DNA of 64,000 bases from Clostridia bacterium (GTDB lineage Bacteria > Bacillota > Clostridia > Monoglobales > Firm-18). Below, piece after piece: positions 1 to 41,841 of this stretch. A program made the position numbers and the translations under genes. Below the pieces are notes generated by a model. The model did no database searches and was not told the origin of the DNA. It saw only the letters and a program-made list of their open reading frames with translations. Positions within the stretch are counted from its first letter, which is position 1; each line of letters starts with the position of its first letter. The stretch lies in the NCBI GenBank assembly GCA_017397315.1, contig JAFQJA010000005.1, positions 1-64,000 of the forward strand, given 5' to 3'.

Positions 1-2442
1 ACCGTCAACAGGAGTTAATGCTGTAACTGCGTCAACACCGTTGTTGTAACTGATACCAAATACTACGCCGCCATCAGCAGAAACTGTAAATACAACAGGT
101 GTTCCATATACTGCATCTGCATCACTGTAACCGCTCTGGTATGAAACTGTCACGCCTTCAGGAGCAGTAATTGTTCTCTTAATTAATGCAAATTTAGCAG
201 TAAATATTTTGTTTGATGTAATTTGAATTGTTTTCAAATCATTAACTAACTGGTCACCGTCATACCAACCGATAAAGTCATAGTATGAGTCGGGGGTTAC
301 TACTACTGCATCAATTTGTCCCTGTGTAAGATATCCGTTTGTTTCAACATATTGAGGTGAGCCTGAAGTAATTGCACCGTTTCCTTCTGCAACAAATGTT
401 ACTGTGTATAAGCCGATTGCATCATAAGAAATTGCGATTACGCCGATAATTTCTTCACCGTCAATTGTGTAAACTCCGTCAACATCAGCAAGTTCGCCTT
501 TGTCAACACCGCCGATACTGTATGAAACAGAATTTAGTGTAACCAGAGATTCGTCAACATCTAATGTGAACTGGTAATCTGTACCGTGTGTAGCAGTAAG
601 TTCTGCTGCCGCTTCACCGTCAGCAGTTTTTGGTGTGATACCTGCAAGTTCAGTAAATGTAACTGCATACTGTGCATCTGTAAATGTTGCTGTATATGTT
701 AACGCTTCTGTTACAGTAGTACCTACAGGAGCACTTGGTGTCCATGCATCAAATTTATATCCTGCATCTGCAACAACTTCAGGTACGTCAGATGCTAAAA
801 TTACATAACCTGTGTCAACTGTCTTTGTTTTTGCTCCTGTTGAATCGTCTGCCCATTTACCGTTTGCACCTACATTGAAAGTAATAACAAACTGTGCAAC
901 ACCCTGTGCTGTATAAACTGCATCTTCAGTTACAGGTGTGGTTGTAATTGTGTTTGTACCTACAAATTCTGTACCGTTATGCCACTGACCTTCAACCTCT
1001 GTTCTTAATCTGTAGCCGGGAGCCGCTGTAAGTATTGGAACTGTTGCCGCAGGTGTACCTGCCTGTAAGTGTGCCAGAGTCGCGTAAAGTGTTGTTGTGT
1101 TGTCTGCAACATAGTATGTTACATCGTCAAATGCAACTACACCTGCACCTGCTTTGAATGTTACTTCGTGATATTCCTTTGTTGTAATTTCAACATAAAC
1201 ATCGTCTAAAACTTCGCCGCCGTCAATTGTATAACTGTCGCCTATTGCAATACTGTTTAGAGCACCGTTTTCGCCTACTTTATATGTAACGCCTGTTACA
1301 ACAAAACCTTCGTCTGCAGTAACTGTAAATGTTACATCTGTGCCGTGAGTAATTGCAGAATTGTTTGCAATGCTTACATCTGCATTGTTTGATGTTTCGT
1401 AGAAAGTAAATGTGTTATGTGAATACTGTGCAACTACTGTTGCGTCTGCATCAACAGTCTCTCCATTCAAATTACCTGGCAATACTACATCGCCGTCATT
1501 TATTTTCCAACCAACAAATGACATGCCTTCAGGCGGAGTGATTTTTGATGCGTCAGGCAAACCTACAGTATCATAAGTTACACCAATATCTGCAACTAAT
1601 TCTGTTTCTACATCCTGAGCAAATGTACCACCATTTGCATCAACTGTAATTTCAAATTGTTGTACCGCTGTAGCAACTACATCTGTGCTGGCTGTAAAGG
1701 GAACCGTTGCCAAAGTTTCTGCTGCATAGAATTGTTCACCGATTTTCCAGTATGCTTCGGTATCTTGCAAGCGATAACCTTCATCCGCCACTGCAGATGG
1801 GTATGCTGTGAAAGTTTCAGTGTAATCAGTTGTTGTCCATAATCCGGGTGCATTCCATTTAGCATAAGCAGATACTTCACCAAATTCTACGATACCTGTG
1901 CCTGGTTTAAATGTAAGAACAACATTATGAAGGTTGATTTCTTCATCTACAAGTGTAATAACACCTGTGTTTTTGTCATAGCTTACAGGCGTAATTTCAG
2001 CAGAATCAAGATCAATAACTGTTGTTTCATTAACTGCATCTATTACTGTGAATGTAGCAGTTGCTATTGTAACAGCACTTTCTGTGCCGATTTCAATATT
2101 GTCAGCAGTCTTTCTTGAAAAAGCAAATTTACCGTTTGTCAGGTTCATTTCATAAAGTCCTGACAGTTCTGTTGTAATGTTGTCAAGTCTAAGAACATCA
2201 TCAGCCCAATTCAAGTCAAACTGGAATGAACCGATATTTTGTCCTTCCCCTGTCGCTATTGCTTTAATGTCTACTGTAAAACTGTCTCCTTTGTTGAAAT
2301 CGCTGGCAGTTGCTTCCGCAGTTACAGTAAAATCTGCATCAACGGTTGTTAATGCAAAAGCGGTAAAGTCAACTACTACTGTTGACAATGCAAAAACTAA
2401 TACCATAAGCATTGCCAACCCTTTTGTACATAATTTTTTCAT
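1..2442 (-). CDS. Secreted cohesin / InlB-repeat surface protein, 3' end outside the window
   Basis: The frame is open for 814 codons from an ATG at 2442 to the window edge, so the C terminus is missing. A GGAGAGG ribosome site precedes the ATG. Residues 1-30 are a signal peptide (Lys-rich start, long hydrophobic core, ending FTAFA). Residues about 35-175 read as a cohesin-type beta sandwich (ADFTVTAEATASDF, then SFQFDLNW). The rest is a series of beta-rich modules of 70-90 residues with InlB-like signatures (GYKFDAWTP, DFIGWYDGD, VTYKVGENG). Such modules are surface adhesin or spacer domains. It is probably exported and wall-linked, but the anchoring end (SLH, dockerin or sorting signal) would lie beyond position 1. 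Whether the cohesin binds a dockerin is inference. Confidence 0.8.
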   Translation of the reverse strand, partial: MKKLCTKGLAMLMVLVFALSTVVVDFTAFALTTVDADFTVTAEATASDFNKGDSFTVDIKAIATGEGQNIGSFQFDLNWADDVLRLDNITTELSGLYEMNLTNGKFAFSRKTADNIEIGTESAVTIATATFTVIDAVNETTVIDLDSAEITPVSYDKNTGVITLVDEEINLHNVVLTFKPGTGIVEFGEVSAYAKWNAPGLWTTTDYTETFTAYPSAVADEGYRLQDTEAYWKIGEQFYAAETLATVPFTASTDVVATAVQQFEITVDANGGTFAQDVETELVADIGVTYDTVGLPDASKITPPEGMSFVGWKINDGDVVLPGNLNGETVDADATVVAQYSHNTFTFYETSNNADVSIANNSAITHGTDVTFTVTADEGFVVTGVTYKVGENGALNSIAIGDSYTIDGGEVLDDVYVEITTKEYHEVTFKAGAGVVAFDDVTYYVADNTTTLYATLAHLQAGTPAATVPILTAAPGYRLRTEVEGQWHNGTEFVGTNTITTTPVTEDAVYTAQGVAQFVITFNVGANGKWADDSTGAKTKTVDTGYVILASDVPEVVADAGYKFDAWTPSAPVGTTVTEALTYTATFTDAQYAVTFTELAGITPKTADGEAAAELTATHGTDYQFTLDVDESLVTLNSVSYSIGGVDKGELADVDGVYTIDGEEIIGVIAISYDAIGLYTVTFVAEGNGAITSGSPQYVETNGYLTQGQIDAVVVTPDSYYDFIGWYDGDQLVNDLKTIQITSNKIFTAKFALIKRTITAPEGVTVSYQSGYSDADAVYGTPVVFTVSADGGVVFGISYNNGVDAVTALTPVDG

Positions 2443-32908: not shown

Positions 32909-33616
32909 ATGCAACCGGACATTTACCAGGCTATTAACAAAGCAAAGAACGGAGATAAAGAATGTCGTTCATTTTTAGTAGAAAAAAACAGCAAACTGGT
33001 GTGGAGTATAGTAAAAAGGTTTTCCAACAGAGGGCACGAAACAGAGGACTTGTTTCAGGTAGGGTGTATAGGACTTATTAAAGCAATAGACAAATTTGAC
33101 ACCTCTTTGGGGCTTCAGTTTTCCACTTATGCTGTCCCTATGATAACAGGCGAAATCAAAAGATTTATAAGAGATGACGGAATTATCAAGGTAAGCAGAA
33201 GCATAAAGGAAACAGGGATAAAAGTAATGGCAGTAAGAGAAAGATTGTCAAACAGTTTAAACCGTGAGCCTACAATATCAGAAATCGCAAAAGAAATAGG
33301 CGTAAGCCCTGAAGATGTTGTTGTATCAATGGAGGCTTACAGCCGTCCTGCTTCTTTGAACTATGCCGAAAATGACGAACAGCCTTTGGAAGAACAACTT
33401 TCTTCAAACAATGATTTGGAAGCAGAAAGCGTTGACAGGTTGGCTCTTAAATCAGTACTTTCTACATTTCCTAAAAGAGAACGGCAAATAATTTTTATGA
33501 GATATTTTATGGACAAGACCCAAAGTGAAACAGCAAAAAAAATCGGCATATCTCAAGTACAGGTGTCAAGGATAGAAAAAAAAGTACTGTCGCAAATGCG
33601 GGAAAAACTGTTATAA
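32909..33616 (+). CDS. sigF: Forespore sigma factor SigF
   Basis: A 235-residue sigma-70 family factor. Region 2: EDLFQVGCIGLIKAIDKFD and FSTYAVPMITGEIKRFIRDD. Region 3: IKVSRSIKE. Region 4: FPKRERQIIFMRYFMDKTQS then ISQVQVSRIEKKVL. It directs early forespore transcription. Third gene of the spoIIA operon; length and context are standard for Clostridia. Confidence 0.96.
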   Translation: MQPDIYQAINKAKNGDKECRSFLVEKNSKLVWSIVKRFSNRGHETEDLFQVGCIGLIKAIDKFDTSLGLQFSTYAVPMITGEIKRFIRDDGIIKVSRSIKETGIKVMAVRERLSNSLNREPTISEIAKEIGVSPEDVVVSMEAYSRPASLNYAENDEQPLEEQLSSNNDLEAESVDRLALKSVLSTFPKRERQIIFMRYFMDKTQSETAKKIGISQVQVSRIEKKVLSQMREKLL

Positions 33617-33662
33617 TATCACATTGTTTTGGCAACACTAATTTTAAGGAGTTGAAAAAGCA

Positions 33663-34313
33663 ATGAAAAAATCCATACTTTTTATAACGCTGGCAGTTCT
33701 GATAATAACTCTGTCGGCAACATTTATAAATACCTCCACATTATCAAAGTACGGCTCCCGAGGGGATGAAGTAAGAGAAATTCAGTCTCGTCTTCAAAAA
33801 TGGGGATACGACATAAAAAAAGTTGACGGTATATTCGGAAGCAACACAAAAAAAGCGGTTATTAAGTTTCAGGGAAACAACGGACTTAAACAAGACGGAA
33901 TTGCGGGTGAAAAAACCCTGGAAAAAATGGGCATCTCGTCAAATTCTGCATCAGGTTCCGCCGAAACCAACGCAAGATTGCTTGCAAGAATAATCAATGC
34001 CGAGGCAAGAGGCGAAAGTTATACCGGACAAGTAGCGGTTGGGGCGGTTGTGTTAAACCGCGTAGAGCACTCCTCATTTCCAAACACTATTGCAGGTGTA
34101 ATTTATCAACCCGGGGCTTTTACCGCCTTGCAGGACGGCCAATGGAATGCACAAATGTATGATACTCCGTACAAAGCCGCAAAAGACGCTTTAAATGGTT
34201 GGGACCCCACAGGAGGAGCAATTTATTATTATAATCCTGCAAAAACTACAAACAACTGGATTTATTCTCGCCCAGTAATTACAACTATAGGAAAACATGT
34301 TTTTGCAAAATAA
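33663..34313 (+). CDS. sleB: Spore cortex-lytic enzyme SleB
   Basis: A 216-residue secreted enzyme that degrades cortex peptidoglycan during germination. An N-terminal hydrophobic signal (1-26), a peptidoglycan-binding domain (30-92: SRGDEVREIQSRLQKWGY, DGIFGSNTKKAV) and a C-terminal Hydrolase_2 domain (105-215) with the presumed catalytic Glu in IINAEARGES and GQVAVGAVVLNRV. The ATG follows AAGGAG. It is 46 bp after sigF and may be transcribed from a forespore promoter, which I could not identify with confidence. No ypeB partner is next to it in this window. Confidence 0.93.
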   Translation: MKKSILFITLAVLIITLSATFINTSTLSKYGSRGDEVREIQSRLQKWGYDIKKVDGIFGSNTKKAVIKFQGNNGLKQDGIAGEKTLEKMGISSNSASGSAETNARLLARIINAEARGESYTGQVAVGAVVLNRVEHSSFPNTIAGVIYQPGAFTALQDGQWNAQMYDTPYKAAKDALNGWDPTGGAIYYYNPAKTTNNWIYSRPVITTIGKHVFAK

Positions 34314-34359: not shown

Positions 34360-34461
34360 TGGAATGACCTTTTCCGCTAATATTGCATCAAAAAATCCGG
34401 TAATACTGTCGTATTACCGGATTTTTATTCTTTATCTTAACGAAAAATCTCTGTCCCAAAA
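34360..34461 (-). repeat. 102-bp dispersed repeat, copy B (inverted)
   Basis: Reverse-complement partner of 21851-21952. It sits between the convergent sleB and 1411-residue surface-protein genes. The stretch around it (34314-34551) holds no gene. Confidence 0.93.
34391..34426. terminator. Bidirectional terminator inside repeat copy B
   Basis: A perfect 16-bp stem (34391-34406 / 34411-34426) with TGTC loop and A/T-runs on both sides. It is read from sleB on one strand and the surface-protein operon on the other. Confidence 0.8.
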
Positions 34462-34551: not shown

Positions 34552-37500
34552 TTAATATATAACTTCAGGTGAGAGCAGTCTTCCTGTCTGACCGTCTAAA
34601 ACATAGGCTTTTAAATAATCGCCAAGTTCAAATGGTGTGCTTGATGTGAAACTTACGGTTACAATTTTATTTGCCCCCAAAAGCACAGGTGTTTCCCGAT
34701 ATGAGATACTTTTTATATTTCCATCGCCGTCGCATAGTGCTACTACAAGTTTTGGCGATTTTAAGTATGCACACATATTGTTAGTAAACTTAACCTCCGC
34801 TTTAACAGAAGTAAGACCGCGAATATCTGCTATCTCAATACCACTGCTGTTTTGAACAGTATTAAACAGCACATCATATCCCACCACAGGTGCTTCAGTA
34901 GTAAATGTAATATTTGTAGCAGAAACAGGAACTAAATTTGAACTTGCAACTGATGACGGTACATTAATTATATATTTCGTGCTGTATTTTAAACCTTTGT
35001 CGAAATACACATAACAACTGTTTTCATCTGCAACAACAGAAGTTGTGGGAACAAGATTTTCAGGTGCTATTCCACCCTCATAAATCTTAATATCTTTAAA
35101 GGAGTTTGTGTTCATACTTGAGTTAAATGCAACTTTAATTTTTCCTGTTGCGGCAACTCCTGTCTGTCCATTTACAACTGAAGAACCTATTATATCAATT
35201 ACAGGCTTTGTAAGTTTTTTAACTTCTATATTATCCAGAGTAATTATAACGGGATCGGCATCTGCATATGTGTATGTATATGAGAATGTAAGCCTTTTAA
35301 TCTTTTCGTTAGGTATTTCTTCTCTGAACGGAGCCACTCCCACGGGACTCTGATATGTTACACCGTCAACAGTGTAGAACATACAATAATTTCTTTCATC
35401 CAAGTTATATACAAGTTTTACATGAATATCCTTGCCTTCAAGCCAGTCGGTAGATGTTATTGCAATATCTTTGTATATATCGTTATATACGCTCTTATCT
35501 TTCCAACCGTGATTACCGCTTGCAAAGGAAAGTCTTGTAATTTCGGATGCAGCGGCACCGGTGGTGCTTGTACTTACGGCAGTATCCGTGTACCACATTG
35601 CAGCTGCAGGTTTTTTGCTGTATTTAATATCATACTCTATAGCTACAACACCGGTCGCGGGCATATCTGCTGCTGTTGATAAATCCAGAGTAGCATTAAT
35701 TCTGTTATTTGATGCCGCATCCGCTATTCTCTGTTCCTTGGTAACTACCATTTTACCATCTTTAAATTCAACTTTATTCGTGTCTGAATAATTTATCACA
35801 TTCTGGCACATGGTGTAAATATTCCAATTACCATCTGAATATTGTGCCTGTGTTCCGGAAGCACCGCCTATAGCACTGTCAAAATATTCACCGTATAACA
35901 AGGTTTCTCCCTCGACAGAGCTTACAGTTCTGAAATTATAAACTTTATTACTTTCAACCCCAAGACCAATTATTGATTTTACAGTTGTTGGAATAGTCAA
36001 AGTATATTCTGTATCGTTTTGGAGTTTATTGTGGTCAAGTCTTACGGTTCTGTTTCCGTTTTCAACATATACATAAAGAGGAATTCTTGTCTCTCCCTGC
36101 ATTAGTGTAATATTCTCAAAGGTTGACGCATCCATCGCCTTGTCAAATTTAAACGAGAACTCGCTTGTAACAGGCACTCCTGTTTGTCCATTTGTTATTG
36201 ATGCAGACACAACAACGGGGGGTGTTGGTGCTGTTTTTGATGTAAAAGTATATATTATTTCCTCTGTTGCAAATGTTCCGTCTTGTGCTTTAACAGTTGT
36301 AGGAATTGTCAGGGTATAATCTGTTTGGTATTCAAGTCCGTCGTGGGTAAATGTTGCAGTTTTTGAATTGTTTGTCATTTGGACATCAAGGTCGACAGAC
36401 CCCTTACTGCTTGTTAGTGTAACATTTCCCATGGACTGCACATCCATAGCCTTGTTGAATGTGATTGTAAATTCCTCGTCAAGTTCAACCTCTGTTGCAC
36501 CGCTTGCTATTGAAACTTTTTTCACTTCGGGTGGTGCGCCAACAGCCATTGTTGTAAATGAAATGGAATAATCTTCTTCTATCGCAAAATAGTCTTCTGA
36601 TATTACAGTTGTAGGAACTATAAGTGAATATTCTGTACCATTTTCAAGTTCATTATGTAAAAGTGTTACGGTTTTTCCGTCAAGGGACAACTCAATGTTG
36701 CTGATTTCTACAGGTGTTGAGCCTTTCATTAATGTAATGTTCTCTAAACTTTCCTCGTTCATCCGCTCTGAAAACTGAATTGTTACAGGCTCATCAATTT
36801 CAATATTTTCTAGTTCATCTACTGATGTTTGTGAAACTTTCGGAGTATAATATTCTACAATAGAAAGATTATCAAACTTAACAACTACTTCAGATGCATC
36901 TGCCGATTCACAAGACTCTTTAAATGTAATCTTATCTAAATCAAATTCAAAATCCGGAACCATATCTTCCCAACCGGTTCGTGCCTGGTATCTTGTACCG
37001 TTAGATATATAATTAACTGTATATTTTTTGTTTGGCACATCAAACAAAATCTGAACTTTCACAGGGACTCCAACCCAATGGCTTGAATTATCTGATATGG
37101 TTTTTGTTGGAAGTTCAGAGATACCAATATATCCATTGCCACTACTATCATAAGCGGAAAGTTTGTTGTAAAAATCCGGGTAAGATACATAATCACTTAC
37201 TCTTAATCCATCATAAGTGGTATATTGGTAACCGTATAATTCTGACCCAAAGTTTGATTTAAATATAAACTGTCCCTGACTGTTTCTGATGATTATATCT
37301 TCTGTATATTTTTTTGAAAAAGCACTATTCTGTAAGTAATCAAATTCCACCGCCACATAATCCGCTTTTCCTCTGTTGTATCCTGTAAACGGTATGGTAA
37401 TTCTGGCAATATTTTGTGTAGCAGTGCCCTCGATATTTTGAGGACTTGTAATCATAAGACCGCCTTCTCTAAACTCAATCTTTGCTCTGTCTGCATTATC

Positions 37501-38787
37501 ACGATCTCCAATATTTTCAGCAGTACCCATAGATATCTCTTCGCCATCGACTACTTCAGCAATAACTATTCCCCAACCTGCATTTCTTTCCGCAGTATCC
37601 CAGCCAACACGCGTATCAAAATCTTCAAACCACATAACTTTTTCGTGCTGTGAAGTTCTGCTGATTGTTGTAAATGTATATGTAGCACCTGCAAAGGACC
37701 CGTTTGTAGTTGATTTAACGGTATTTGGTATGTTAAGCACATAAGTTGTTGCATAATCCAAAAGGGTATGCGAAAAATATGTTGCAACTCCATCTGTTGC
37801 AATAGACGGAGTCAGTTCAACTGCCGGGCCGTCAACAGTGCCTTTGTGCAATGTAACATTGTTTAATGTTTCAAAGGCAATTGGTGCACTGAATACAACC
37901 TTTAACGGTTCTGTTAAACCCATATCGGTTTCAACTATTGTTGTATATTCAACGGTAGGAACATCAGGTTCTGCTTCAGTGGCAACAGACATCAATGCAA
38001 AATTATTAAAAGCCGTCAATGCAAAATTATCAAAAGTCATTGTAACAGGCTCACCGTTAGTTTCTGTTTCGTTAACACAAGCCAAAGTAAACCTTAAGTT
38101 GTTCAAGTCAAACTCTCCGCCTTCAAGTGTTTCTTCAGAAACAGACGGAATAGGAAGCGGGTCAAACGCTTCTACGCTTTCTCTACCCTCAGGAGTATAG
38201 AAAACCTGATATGTGTCCTGGTCTAAATCAAACAAAAGTCTTACACTTACTGTCTGGCCTATATAGGTTGAAGCAGGAGCAACATTTTCATATTCAACCG
38301 AAGACGGTTCTTCGTTGCCCGCAATAATCCGCAAGCCTGTTGTGGCATTACCAAAACCAAAACCTGCAATATTGGCATTTTCTTCATTAACCAGCATCAA
38401 GTTTGAATAGTGGTTGTCATCAACCCAGTTTATATTTTGTTCGTAATCAAAATCAAAAGCAAGGTACCCGCTGTCGGGAGTTTCAAACTCGCCCGATGCA
38501 GACAACGGAACTGTTATGTTTATATAGTCCGTGTCAACAGAAGTGCCTGCCAACTGATTCTTTGTTACAACCAGTTTGCCATCAATTATCTCAACACTGT
38601 TTGCGTTTTTGTATGCTTCTTCTCCCCACAAAGTATAATCCCAGGGTGATTCTTCAAGTCCGTCAAAGTCTTGACTCCACAAAACCTCACCAGTTGCTAA
38701 AACAGGCGAAGTAACAGTAATCATAGTTGCTAAAACGGCAAATATCAAAGCAAATGATAAAACCTTTTTTCCTTTAAAAGTAACCAT
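34552..38787 (-). CDS. Giant secreted protein with Ig-like (Big_5) and beta-sandwich modules
   Basis: 1411 residues. Signal peptide 1-32 (ending SPVLATG). Three lectin/LamG-like beta-sandwich regions begin near 34 (LWSQDFDGLEES), 385 (MWFEDFDTRVGW) and 960 (LLYGEYFDSAIGG). Ig-like SbsA/Big_5-type domains repeat at about 280-375, 655-750, 750-850, 850-950 and 1200-1310, each with the pattern VTIQFSERMNEESLENITLM, then TEYSLIVPTTV. The last 100 residues form a separate beta domain. No catalytic motif, SLH or dockerin was recognised. Third gene of the dockerin/cohesin-SLH operon, 11 bp after the SLH gene. Role as an adhesin or glycan-binding surface filament is inference. Confidence 0.85.
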   Translation of the reverse strand: MVTFKGKKVLSFALIFAVLATMITVTSPVLATGEVLWSQDFDGLEESPWDYTLWGEEAYKNANSVEIIDGKLVVTKNQLAGTSVDTDYINITVPLSASGEFETPDSGYLAFDFDYEQNINWVDDNHYSNLMLVNEENANIAGFGFGNATTGLRIIAGNEEPSSVEYENVAPASTYIGQTVSVRLLFDLDQDTYQVFYTPEGRESVEAFDPLPIPSVSEETLEGGEFDLNNLRFTLACVNETETNGEPVTMTFDNFALTAFNNFALMSVATEAEPDVPTVEYTTIVETDMGLTEPLKVVFSAPIAFETLNNVTLHKGTVDGPAVELTPSIATDGVATYFSHTLLDYATTYVLNIPNTVKSTTNGSFAGATYTFTTISRTSQHEKVMWFEDFDTRVGWDTAERNAGWGIVIAEVVDGEEISMGTAENIGDRDNADRAKIEFREGGLMITSPQNIEGTATQNIARITIPFTGYNRGKADYVAVEFDYLQNSAFSKKYTEDIIIRNSQGQFIFKSNFGSELYGYQYTTYDGLRVSDYVSYPDFYNKLSAYDSSGNGYIGISELPTKTISDNSSHWVGVPVKVQILFDVPNKKYTVNYISNGTRYQARTGWEDMVPDFEFDLDKITFKESCESADASEVVVKFDNLSIVEYYTPKVSQTSVDELENIEIDEPVTIQFSERMNEESLENITLMKGSTPVEISNIELSLDGKTVTLLHNELENGTEYSLIVPTTVISEDYFAIEEDYSISFTTMAVGAPPEVKKVSIASGATEVELDEEFTITFNKAMDVQSMGNVTLTSSKGSVDLDVQMTNNSKTATFTHDGLEYQTDYTLTIPTTVKAQDGTFATEEIIYTFTSKTAPTPPVVVSASITNGQTGVPVTSEFSFKFDKAMDASTFENITLMQGETRIPLYVYVENGNRTVRLDHNKLQNDTEYTLTIPTTVKSIIGLGVESNKVYNFRTVSSVEGETLLYGEYFDSAIGGASGTQAQYSDGNWNIYTMCQNVINYSDTNKVEFKDGKMVVTKEQRIADAASNNRINATLDLSTAADMPATGVVAIEYDIKYSKKPAAAMWYTDTAVSTSTTGAAASEITRLSFASGNHGWKDKSVYNDIYKDIAITSTDWLEGKDIHVKLVYNLDERNYCMFYTVDGVTYQSPVGVAPFREEIPNEKIKRLTFSYTYTYADADPVIITLDNIEVKKLTKPVIDIIGSSVVNGQTGVAATGKIKVAFNSSMNTNSFKDIKIYEGGIAPENLVPTTSVVADENSCYVYFDKGLKYSTKYIINVPSSVASSNLVPVSATNITFTTEAPVVGYDVLFNTVQNSSGIEIADIRGLTSVKAEVKFTNNMCAYLKSPKLVVALCDGDGNIKSISYRETPVLLGANKIVTVSFTSSTPFELGDYLKAYVLDGQTGRLLSPEVIY

Positions 38788-38798
38788 ATTTTTTCTCC

Positions 38799-40808
38799 TT
38801 ATTTCCCTATTAATGTTAAAATTCTGCTTATTGTTACTGCACTTTCCGCACGGCTTGCATTGTCAAGCGGTGCGAACATATCATTTCCCTTGCCGTTGAT
38901 AATGCTGTGAGATGACAACAAAGACACTGCATCTGTTGCCCAACCGCTCACTTTGTTTTCATCTGCAAAAGTTTTGCTTTCTTTATCAGGTAATTCATAA
39001 TTTTTAAGAGCTCTGGCAAGCATTACACACATTTCTTCTCTTGTGATTGTATTGTCAGGTCTAAATGTGTTGTTTTCATAACCTGTTACAATTCCGTTTG
39101 ACACTGCAATATCAACATATTGTTTGTACCACTCTGCCGAATTAACATCACTAAAAGATAGAACCTTGTCGTTTTTCAAAGTTAATCCGAAGGCGGACAC
39201 AACAAGTTTAGCAAATTCAGCTCTGTTTACACTCTTTGCAGGTTCAAAAGTTGTTGCGCTTGTACCGCTTACTATACTTTTTTGAACTAATTTATCAATA
39301 GCATCAAGAGCCCAATCGTAGCCATTCAAATCATTAAACTTACCGCTTGGTCTGGTGGGTGTTACAGGCTCTGTCTGAACTCCGCCGAAACCGGCACCAC
39401 CGCCTCCGCCACCGCCTCCGCCGTCAGAGGGGTTGCAGGTAATGATAATATAGTAATCCTTTGTAGTGCCATTTAATGCGGTAACTGTAATTGTAATTGT
39501 ATTTTCACCTTTTATAAATTTAGAAGGTTTTGTTATTGCAACACGCGCATAACTGTCATTTGGTGTTGCAACGACCTCCGGTATTGTTGTAAATTTTGTT
39601 GCTCCTTTATAAGTTGTAATCTCGCTCGAAAATGCAGGAGATAATGTAATTTTTCCGTTCATGTGAAGTTCTTTTAAAGTATTATCCCCATACAGGTTGG
39701 GCGGATTATATGTAATTGCTACAAGATAACATTTTTGTGTACCGTCAAGAGCGGTAACCGTAATCAGGATTTCGTTTCTTCCCAATCTGAATGTTTCGGG
39801 CTTTTGAATATCAACCGTAGCACCGTCAACCGTTGGTATAGCCGTAATCAAAGGCACAGTTGCCGACTCTGTCGATGTTGTATAAGCCAATGTTTCGCCC
39901 GAGAATGAGGGCGACAACGAAAGTCCTTCTATGGACAATGCACTTAATGAATTATCGCTCAAATATGCAGGAGGCGTTTCTCTTGTAATAACTACCGTGT
40001 ACTCTTTATATGTAATACCGTCGTCCGCAACGCATTTAACCACAAAAGTGTTTACGCCTGTTTCAAGGTTTTTAACACCTACTGTTTCTGACACAACCGA
40101 AGCATCCTCATCTGTTGCAGTTGCAGAAAGAGTAACGGCCTGCGTATCAGCAGAAACTGTTGCTGTATAAGAATAAACGCCTGAATTAAATACAGGTGAT
40201 AAAACCGCAGGAAGTGCAGTTAAAGAACTTAATGTTGCGTCGGTGTCCTTAACAAGTTTTATCCGTGCATCATCACAGTCAATATGTCCCTTTGACAATT
40301 TATATTCGGTGTTGGATAAACCGTTCAAGATTATTTCGTCAAACGCAACAGTAGTGTTTTGTGTAACGCCCGCTTTTCTTTTGAATACCAAAGTTACAAG
40401 TGTTGCATTTGCCTCAACTGACTGTTGTCTGAAAGAACGAGTGCCTGACAAAACATCGACAAACACTATGCTTCCTCGGCTGTTTTCATTAATCGCGGTT
40501 GCATCAGCTGACCAAACGGCATTTTCAAGAGTGCCATTGTTTGTGTTATACGCTTTCATTTCTCTTTTAACCCTTGAAAATTCCAACTTTGTACTGTCAA
40601 AAGAAAAATCTATCTGTACTCCTTTTATTGCCGTATCAACTATATTCGAAATAGTCAACGAAACAGAAATCTCTCCGTTGGCGGCAACATCTGACGCATC
40701 AACTTCCCCAGTTGTAATGGAAACAACTGACACAGCACTTACGGAAAAGGATAAACCAATTACAGAAAACGCTACTGCCAGTATTGATGCTAAAACTCTC
40801 TTGTTCAT
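38799..40808 (-). CDS. Cohesin-cadherin-like-SLH cell-surface anchor
   Basis: 669 residues, laid out as a scaffoldin-type anchor: signal peptide 1-25; cohesin-like domain about 26-190 (DAIKGVQIDFSFDS-type core, TLVTLVFKRKAG); three cadherin-like beta-sandwich repeats of about 85 residues (each starting DxTLSSL, DNSLSAL or DNTLKEL); a poly-Gly linker (nine glycines); and three SLH repeats (FNDLNGYDWALDAIDKL, FSDVNSAEWYKQYVDIA, FADENKVSGWATDAVSLL) that bind secondary wall polymers. It is 14 bp downstream of a dockerin-protein gene. The cohesin-dockerin pairing of these two is a strong inference, not shown. Confidence 0.93.
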   Translation of the reverse strand: MNKRVLASILAVAFSVIGLSFSVSAVSVVSITTGEVDASDVAANGEISVSLTISNIVDTAIKGVQIDFSFDSTKLEFSRVKREMKAYNTNNGTLENAVWSADATAINENSRGSIVFVDVLSGTRSFRQQSVEANATLVTLVFKRKAGVTQNTTVAFDEIILNGLSNTEYKLSKGHIDCDDARIKLVKDTDATLSSLTALPAVLSPVFNSGVYSYTATVSADTQAVTLSATATDEDASVVSETVGVKNLETGVNTFVVKCVADDGITYKEYTVVITRETPPAYLSDNSLSALSIEGLSLSPSFSGETLAYTTSTESATVPLITAIPTVDGATVDIQKPETFRLGRNEILITVTALDGTQKCYLVAITYNPPNLYGDNTLKELHMNGKITLSPAFSSEITTYKGATKFTTIPEVVATPNDSYARVAITKPSKFIKGENTITITVTALNGTTKDYYIIITCNPSDGGGGGGGGGAGFGGVQTEPVTPTRPSGKFNDLNGYDWALDAIDKLVQKSIVSGTSATTFEPAKSVNRAEFAKLVVSAFGLTLKNDKVLSFSDVNSAEWYKQYVDIAVSNGIVTGYENNTFRPDNTITREEMCVMLARALKNYELPDKESKTFADENKVSGWATDAVSLLSSHSIINGKGNDMFAPLDNASRAESAVTISRILTLIGK

Positions 40809-40822
40809 CTCTGTTTCTCCCC

Positions 40823-41686
40823 TTATCTGTTAAGCGCAGGTATGTCTATTATATTTCCGTTAACATAATCATACAAATATGTAACATCTGTAATGTTAAT
40901 CAAGCCGTCTCCGTTAAAGTCAGAGCATATATTAATAATTTCATCAAAAGAAGTTCCTCTTATAATCTTGCCTATAATAACTGATATGTCTGAAGAATTA
41001 ATGTTGCCGTCAGCATTTGTATCTCCGATTATTATTTCCTGATTTTCTCCGTTTGCGGCAACAAACTCGGGGGTTGAGTTATCATAACCCGATACAATGG
41101 CAACATACTTATTAACCGCACCGTAATTTGCAATTTTATACATTTGGTGTCCGTTGACTTTTACCACCGCTTCTTCAGGCAAGGTATTCTCTGTTGTAAT
41201 GATTAAAAGAGACTGCCCCTCTAATCCGAACGCATTTATTGCCTCTGACACATTAATATGTCCTGTTTCACTGCCGGATACAAAAGTATATGTTTTGTCA
41301 GAAGGCTGAAGTATGCTTGATGCACCAAGTTTTATAAAAATTTTGTTATTTTGAACAAGACTTTTTTTAAGCAAAAAAGTAAAGGAATCGTTTGAATTTT
41401 CAATCGGTTGCTGGTCTATATATACAATGTTTACAGGCTTGTCAGTTTCTTCTTCATCAAACACAATCGCGTCAGTGCCCGTCAGTATAAGCATAGTAAC
41501 TTGTTCCCCTTCCTGATAAGATGACGCTGTATAATTAACGGTGATTTTATAATCAAGCCCGCCATTTTCCTCAGTCAAATCAATCTTTCCACAACTTATT
41601 GTTGCAGCATACGCAGAGGAAGTCCCTAATAACACTATAGCAAAACATATCAATACCAAAATATTAAGATGTCTATTCTCAAACAT
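40823..41686 (-). CDS. Secreted dockerin-containing protein
   Basis: 287 residues: signal peptide 1-28 (ending SSAYAA), a beta-rich domain of about 190 residues with no recognised family, and a C-terminal type I-like dockerin (220-275). Its two calcium loops are complete: D222-T-N224-A-D226-G-N228 ... D233 and D256-F-N258-G-D260-G-L262 ... D267. Dockerins bind cohesins. First gene of the operon, behind its own promoter, so its probable partner is the cohesin of the next gene. Confidence 0.92.
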   Translation of the reverse strand: MFENRHLNILVLICFAIVLLGTSSAYAATISCGKIDLTEENGGLDYKITVNYTASSYQEGEQVTMLILTGTDAIVFDEEETDKPVNIVYIDQQPIENSNDSFTFLLKKSLVQNNKIFIKLGASSILQPSDKTYTFVSGSETGHINVSEAINAFGLEGQSLLIITTENTLPEEAVVKVNGHQMYKIANYGAVNKYVAIVSGYDNSTPEFVAANGENQEIIIGDTNADGNINSSDISVIIGKIIRGTSFDEIINICSDFNGDGLINITDVTYLYDYVNGNIIDIPALNR

Positions 41687-41727
41687 AGAATATTCCCCCT
41701 CATTTTATAATACAACAATGCATAATA

Positions 41728-41756
41728 ATTGTAACACAAACCGCATTAAGTTGCAA
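41728..41756 (-). promoter_or_regulatory. Sigma-A promoter of the dockerin-cohesin operon
   Basis: On the minus strand, -35 TTGCAA (41751-41756), 17 bp, -10 TACAAT (41728-41733), about 42 bp before the dockerin-gene ATG. Confidence 0.7.
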
Positions 41757-41797
41757 TACCTTTTCCGTAAATTTGTATTTTCAAAATATAACAAAAA

Positions 41798-41819
41798 AGC
41801 AGTGCTGAAACGCACTGCT
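41798..41819 (-). terminator. Terminator of the htrA-like gene
   Basis: Stem AGCAGTGC / GCACTGCT (41798-41805 / 41812-41819), 6-nt loop, T-run on the minus strand, 23 bp after the stop. Confidence 0.8.
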
Positions 41820-41841
41820 CTTAACCTATTAGGTTTAACTA

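Follow-up and report, generated by a model that had tools for sequence, protein, structure and literature searches.

Cohesin-dockerin pairs are, to our knowledge, known almost only as the glue of cellulosomes. In cellulosomal dockerins, positions 10-11 and the helix positions are the recognition residues, and the symmetry of the two repeats allows two binding modes. Other non-cellulosomal cohesin/dockerin proteins were reportedly described by Peer et al. in 2009. Most mesophilic cellulosomal clostridia share dockerin recognition residues across species (PMC5748583). Outside cellulose degradation, cohesin/dockerin proteins are found in archaea, in Archaeoglobus fulgidus and in ANME (PMC9012536), and Paenibacillus guangzhouensis is called a 'scaffoldin-containing' bacterium for which conventional cellulosomes are considered unlikely (PMC11557425). 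Here, we describe an operon from a gut Clostridia bacterium that is likely to encode a two-part surface device, which would serve as scaffold to an adhesive or binding module, and not a cellulosome.

The stretch analyzed (hereafter the window; 64,000 nucleotides, contig JAFQJA010000005.1) belongs to a MAG of 917 kb, 84% complete. Three genes on its minus strand (34552-41686) form an operon, with 14 and 11 bp between them, and good ribosome-binding sites precede the second and third genes. Gene 1 (40823..41686) encodes a 287-aa protein with a signal peptide, a domain here called X, a linker/mid region, and a C-terminal type I dockerin; gene 2 (38799..40808) encodes a 669-aa anchor consisting of a cohesin, three cadherin-like repeats, a Gly-rich linker, and three SLH domains; and gene 3 (34552..38787) encodes a secreted 1,411-aa protein with five Big_5 domains (Pfam, 6.5e-51), in which dockerin, cohesin, and SLH domains were not found. 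A sequence-only reading of this DNA had described the same cluster, namely a secreted dockerin protein with two complete Ca loops followed by a cohesin-cadherin-SLH anchor and a 1,411-residue Ig-like protein, with no glycosidase; the genes lie at the coordinates it gave, and Pfam bore out the domains and found no glycosidase in the cluster. Two congeneric MAGs (yak rectum and goat colon) keep this three-gene order, Big_5 gene included, so the arrangement is not due to chance. Promoter-like sites lie upstream (41707..41756, minus strand), as consensus matches only, with shuffled sequences holding as many. The operon is bounded on that side by a terminator-like hairpin of an upstream htrA-like gene (41795..41822, minus strand), and past its end lies a terminator-like hairpin of 16 pairs with A and T tracts (34391..34426, no strand assigned). 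Just beyond, on the opposite strand (32909-34313), are a sigma-factor-like gene and a gene resembling peptidoglycan-binding cell-wall hydrolases, for which we know of no link to the operon.

The dockerin of gene 1 (40859..41029, minus strand; approximately residues 220 to 276) was assigned to PF00404 (Dockerin_1, 1.2e-7) and matches solved dockerins; both of its Ca loops, DTNADGNINSSD (40988-41023) and DFNGDGLINITD (40886-40921), are complete and canonical. X (41291..41605, minus strand; residues 28 to 132), delimited with an iterated profile, hit no Pfam family at cut-off and is, as judged from its sequence, a new domain of ~105 residues. It was also considered as a divergent cohesin, for which profile comparison gave 0.3 to 0.8%, no support. 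The model of the full-length protein (pLDDT, 43) was too poor for a fold search, its matches being antibody domains. X occurs without a dockerin at three loci (L123:3366-6500, with three copies on an SLH protein, and L120:1640-3748 and L129:7848-8885, where it stands alone) and is therefore an independent surface module.

In the anchor, Pfam placed three SLH domains (38838..39341, minus strand; 1.3e-38), the cell-wall anchor, and three cadherin-like repeats (PF12733; 39429..40241, minus strand; 2.5e-12). The two congeners have more of these repeats, so the length of the stalk varies. The cohesin (40296..40706, minus strand; approximately residues 35 to 171) was identified by profile and fold; its Pfam score (PF00963) was borderline, at 23.9 bits in the protein scan and 27.1 bits in the genome search, against a cut-off of 24.1 bits. 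Compared by profile with cohesins of other genera, this domain gave 94%, versus ≤2% for cadherin, Big_5, InlB, and X domains. Sequence search against solved structures found no real relative, and cohesins were reached by fold comparison alone. Structure prediction of this N-terminal domain was one of the ways in which the sequence-only reading said that it could be refuted. AlphaFold, run without templates, modeled the domain with moderate confidence (mean pLDDT, 59.8), and the model supports a cohesin fold: the best Foldseek matches were nearly all cohesins, and the top 40 rows from VIA-align were cohesins (best Z, 11.9). The genome (G000), less than 1 Mb in size, encodes 42 SLH domains, distributed over clearly more than ten proteins, and, above cut-off, the pyruvyl transferase CsaB, which makes SLH anchoring of the 669-aa protein plausible.

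Own-lineage profiles found five dockerins and four cohesins in the genome. Two more clusters pair them: one has a 314-aa dockerin protein and a 445-aa cohesin-SLH protein; in the other, the cohesin-SLH protein has 686 aa and the X-dockerin protein 373 aa. Recognition residues of the dockerins differ between cassettes (LY/KR, AA/TT, and SS/IT). Pfam and reading placed all five dockerins and all four cohesins on surface proteins that are not recognizable enzymes, although a dockerin-borne enzyme could be missing since the genome is 84% complete. Cohesins were found on single-cohesin proteins only, no multi-cohesin primary scaffoldin being seen in this 84% complete genome, and no CBM was found in Pfam scans of the scaffold proteins. 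The cohesin-like protein noticed earlier at 1..2442 (minus strand) does carry an N-terminal cohesin (approximately C4:1936-2310; E value, 2e-29), followed by InlB-type repeats, and is cut by the contig end. Window positions 1-108 are an assembly repeat of 108 bp that contigs C4, C24, and C23 have in identical form at one end and that falls inside this cohesin/InlB-repeat/dockerin protein family. A simple continuation of the protein into C24 was dropped because the 108-bp junction also ends C23; either continuation ends in a dockerin. With the repeat at three contig ends, the junction is ambiguous, and at least two such proteins probably exist.

Among relatives, the iterated profile found X in 35 of 60, mostly once per genome; in a sample of 291 genomes from the class, 17 had it at E ≤ 1e-8. 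A cohesin and/or SLH gene comes within 150 bp after 24 of 26 X-dockerin genes; a contig end truncates one of the two exceptions, and the second lies directly after a cohesin-SLH gene. The X-dockerin/cohesin-SLH gene pair is widespread in the order, at roughly one copy per genome. Dockerins of relatives are otherwise carried by Ig-like, beta-helix, and InlB-type proteins and by a few peptidases; an M60 peptidase (L143:3-4859), a subtilase of family S8 (L139:2464-7863), and an M23 peptidase with ricin-type lectin domains (L147:1997-4666) were seen. At one locus (L076:6258-8561), a single 767-aa protein combines a dockerin and a cohesin-SLH of the type seen in the second cluster, which separate genes encode in relatives. 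Pfam detected no glycosidase domain in ~24 dockerin proteins scanned from relatives.

The pair was also compared in a sister genus, where X of the pair is present in 12 of 12 species. SLH parts of the partner are mostly 84 to 98% identical between these species (lower in G018 and G038), while its cohesins are mostly 12 to 31% identical, except within types. By profile, even the divergent types remain cohesins (83 to 98%; stalk controls, <1%), the N-terminal domain of the G029 partner being weakly recognizable (52%). Dockerin distance follows cohesin distance (r = 0.77; partial r = 0.78 given SLH and X distances; permutation p = 0.0002) and not SLH distance (r = −0.05), and in AU tests, a common history for SLH and cohesin is rejected (p = 6e-20 and 2e-14); both the co-variation and the tree tests were done on 11 or 12 species once the pattern had been noticed. 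In DNA identity, G029 and G027 agree at 88% in X, 92% in the stalk, and 94% in SLH versus 50% in the dockerin and 43% in the cohesin. The profile of G010 and G013 has sharp borders, with flanks at 85 to 100%, X at 54 to 68%, dockerin at 51 to 74%, and cohesin at 39 to 72%, past which the stalk is mostly at 80 to 100% (one 75-bp window at 52%) and SLH at 95 to 99%. G016 and G019 have the reverse profile, with a dockerin-cohesin block at 83 to 99% (last window down to 59%) amid more divergent X (45 to 83%), stalk (53 to 84%), and SLH (73 to 92%). By these alignments, the dockerin and the cohesin of the sister genus have moved between species jointly, as one DNA cassette; since the two are contiguous, a single recombination event can move a working pair. 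X and stalk also occur in allelic blocks in some species pairs. In a different cohesin-SLH-dockerin protein of the same species, taken as a control, the median cohesin identity is 52% and the second dockerin repeat is almost invariant. No precedent for co-diversified or hypervariable cohesin-dockerin pairs was found in the open literature searched.

Such matched, co-diversified, side-by-side partners are present in the sister genus and were not seen among the three species of the window's own genus. There, no hypervariability was observed, dockerin (67 to 74%) and cohesin (72 to 77%) being slightly less conserved than X (78 to 83%) and SLH (84 to 88%).

The two dockerin repeats were compared in 21 X-dockerins, all from outside the window's genus. 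Positions 10-11 match between repeats in 93% of cases within a protein versus 19% between proteins (shuffled pairs), and helix positions 17-18 and 21-22 are alike in 93 versus 30%, while the non-contact loop positions 2, 4, 6, and 7 agree in just 46%. This asymmetry disfavors recent internal duplication as the source of the symmetry. Among 24 proteins, 17 distinct dipeptides occupy positions 10-11. The repeats are asymmetric in the window's genus (SS/IT). Together with co-variation and joint transfer, the repeat symmetry in relatives provides indirect but strong evidence that neighboring dockerins and cohesins bind each other, and the window's dockerin protein is probably held by the wall-anchored cohesin of its own operon.

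We propose that the 669-aa anchor is exported and held by its SLH domains on pyruvylated wall polysaccharide (as SLH and CsaB would imply), presenting its cohesin on the cadherin-like stalk. The 287-aa X-dockerin protein would likewise be exported and would dock, in a Ca-dependent manner, on the next-door cohesin, as gene order and co-variation in relatives suggest, and X would thereby be displayed on the cell. It is unlikely that the dockerin instead binds another cohesin of the cell, that of the 1-2442 protein or of other SLH anchors, and builds a chain or mesh: the genome has enough partners for this, including one protein that carries both types, and recognition residues do differ between its cassettes, yet order-wide adjacency and the co-variation of neighbors in relatives speak for the cohesin next door. 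A reduced or cryptic cellulosome, either a relic scaffold or one that captures dockerin enzymes from the missing part of the genome or from neighboring bacteria, appears improbable. The genome is small and incomplete, related bacteria of the order have more dockerins, a few of them on peptidases (S8, M60, and M23 with ricin-type lectin), and P. guangzhouensis has been proposed to scavenge foreign dockerin proteins (PMC11557425). Against this stand the lack of glycosidase domains in the relatives' dockerin proteins scanned, the conservation of the pair with turnover of its specificity in the sister genus, which is unlike a relic, and the proposed privacy of those specificities, which is the opposite of scavenging. 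The earlier interpretation of the locus thus holds in part: a non-cellulosomal, SLH-anchored cohesin-dockerin assembly finds good support in the domains, the operon, the order-wide pair, the co-variation in relatives, and the finding of no dockerin-borne enzyme in the genome, while the suggested adhesin or glycan-binder cargo gained no backing, X having no Pfam family and too poor a model.

Why the pair varies is a separate matter from the two-part surface device, with which either of the following answers is compatible. In the sister genus, the 3' end of the dockerin gene and the 5' end of the cohesin gene form a contiguous cassette that has been diversified and exchanged, while X, stalk, and SLH follow other histories. 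The simplest reading would be selection either for private matched specificities, such that a cell captures only its own secreted partner, or for change in an exposed surface domain that thereby escapes, the dockerin having to change with it. Private capture and exposed-domain escape would each select for the pattern, and the data favor neither. The escape version, in which phages or host antibodies press on the exposed cohesin, the dockerin follows passively, and self-recognition is not selected, is a possibility to be taken seriously, though we would not presume it. The allelic blocks of X and stalk in some pairs are what general surface diversification would produce, but divergence peaks in the matched dockerin-cohesin unit, and another surface protein of the same species has a cohesin that varies much less. 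In its strongest form, the private reading makes the pair a self-recognition or privatization system of gut Clostridia, in which X would be captured only by cells with the same cassette and many orthogonal specificities would be kept by diversifying selection and cassette exchange; we advance this only tentatively.

What is new here is an order-wide, mostly single-copy, enzyme-free cohesin-dockerin pair with matched specificities that change among close relatives and move as one cassette. That plug and socket are species-specific and jointly exchanged in related species is suggestive of private recognition at the cell surface, not of a cellulosome, and the pair may point to a surface recognition system in gut bacteria. 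Non-cellulosomal cohesin-dockerin function becomes testable by simple binding matrices, and protein engineering gains from nature a collection of binding pairs that may be orthogonal.

Compared with known systems, the locus shares with the SLH-anchoring scaffoldins of cellulosomes (Acetivibrio thermocellus ScaB, ScaC, ScaD, and ScaF type) a cohesin joined to SLH, a type I-like dockerin partner, and Ca loops, and the fold of its cohesin matches solved cellulosomal cohesins; it differs from the A. thermocellus type in that no dockerin-borne glycosidase was found, the cargo is the small X domain, and the partners are a neighboring gene pair. The sister-genus locus is the reverse of most mesophilic clostridial cellulosomes (PMC5748583), its specificity differing between close relatives. 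P. guangzhouensis likewise has cohesins, dockerins, and SLH anchors without a conventional cellulosome, and proteins with both dockerin and cohesin; these often carry glycosidases, however, and the section considered describes neither an X domain nor a co-diversifying cassette (PMC11557425). Archaeal pairs (PMC9012536) also work outside cellulose degradation, in unrelated lineages and with unrelated cargo, and a conserved X-dockerin/cohesin-SLH pair is not described for them. The cohesin of a Clostridium perfringens surface glycosidase has the same non-cellulosomal cohesin fold (structural match to 2vo8; Z, 10.6), but there the cohesin is borne by the enzyme itself.
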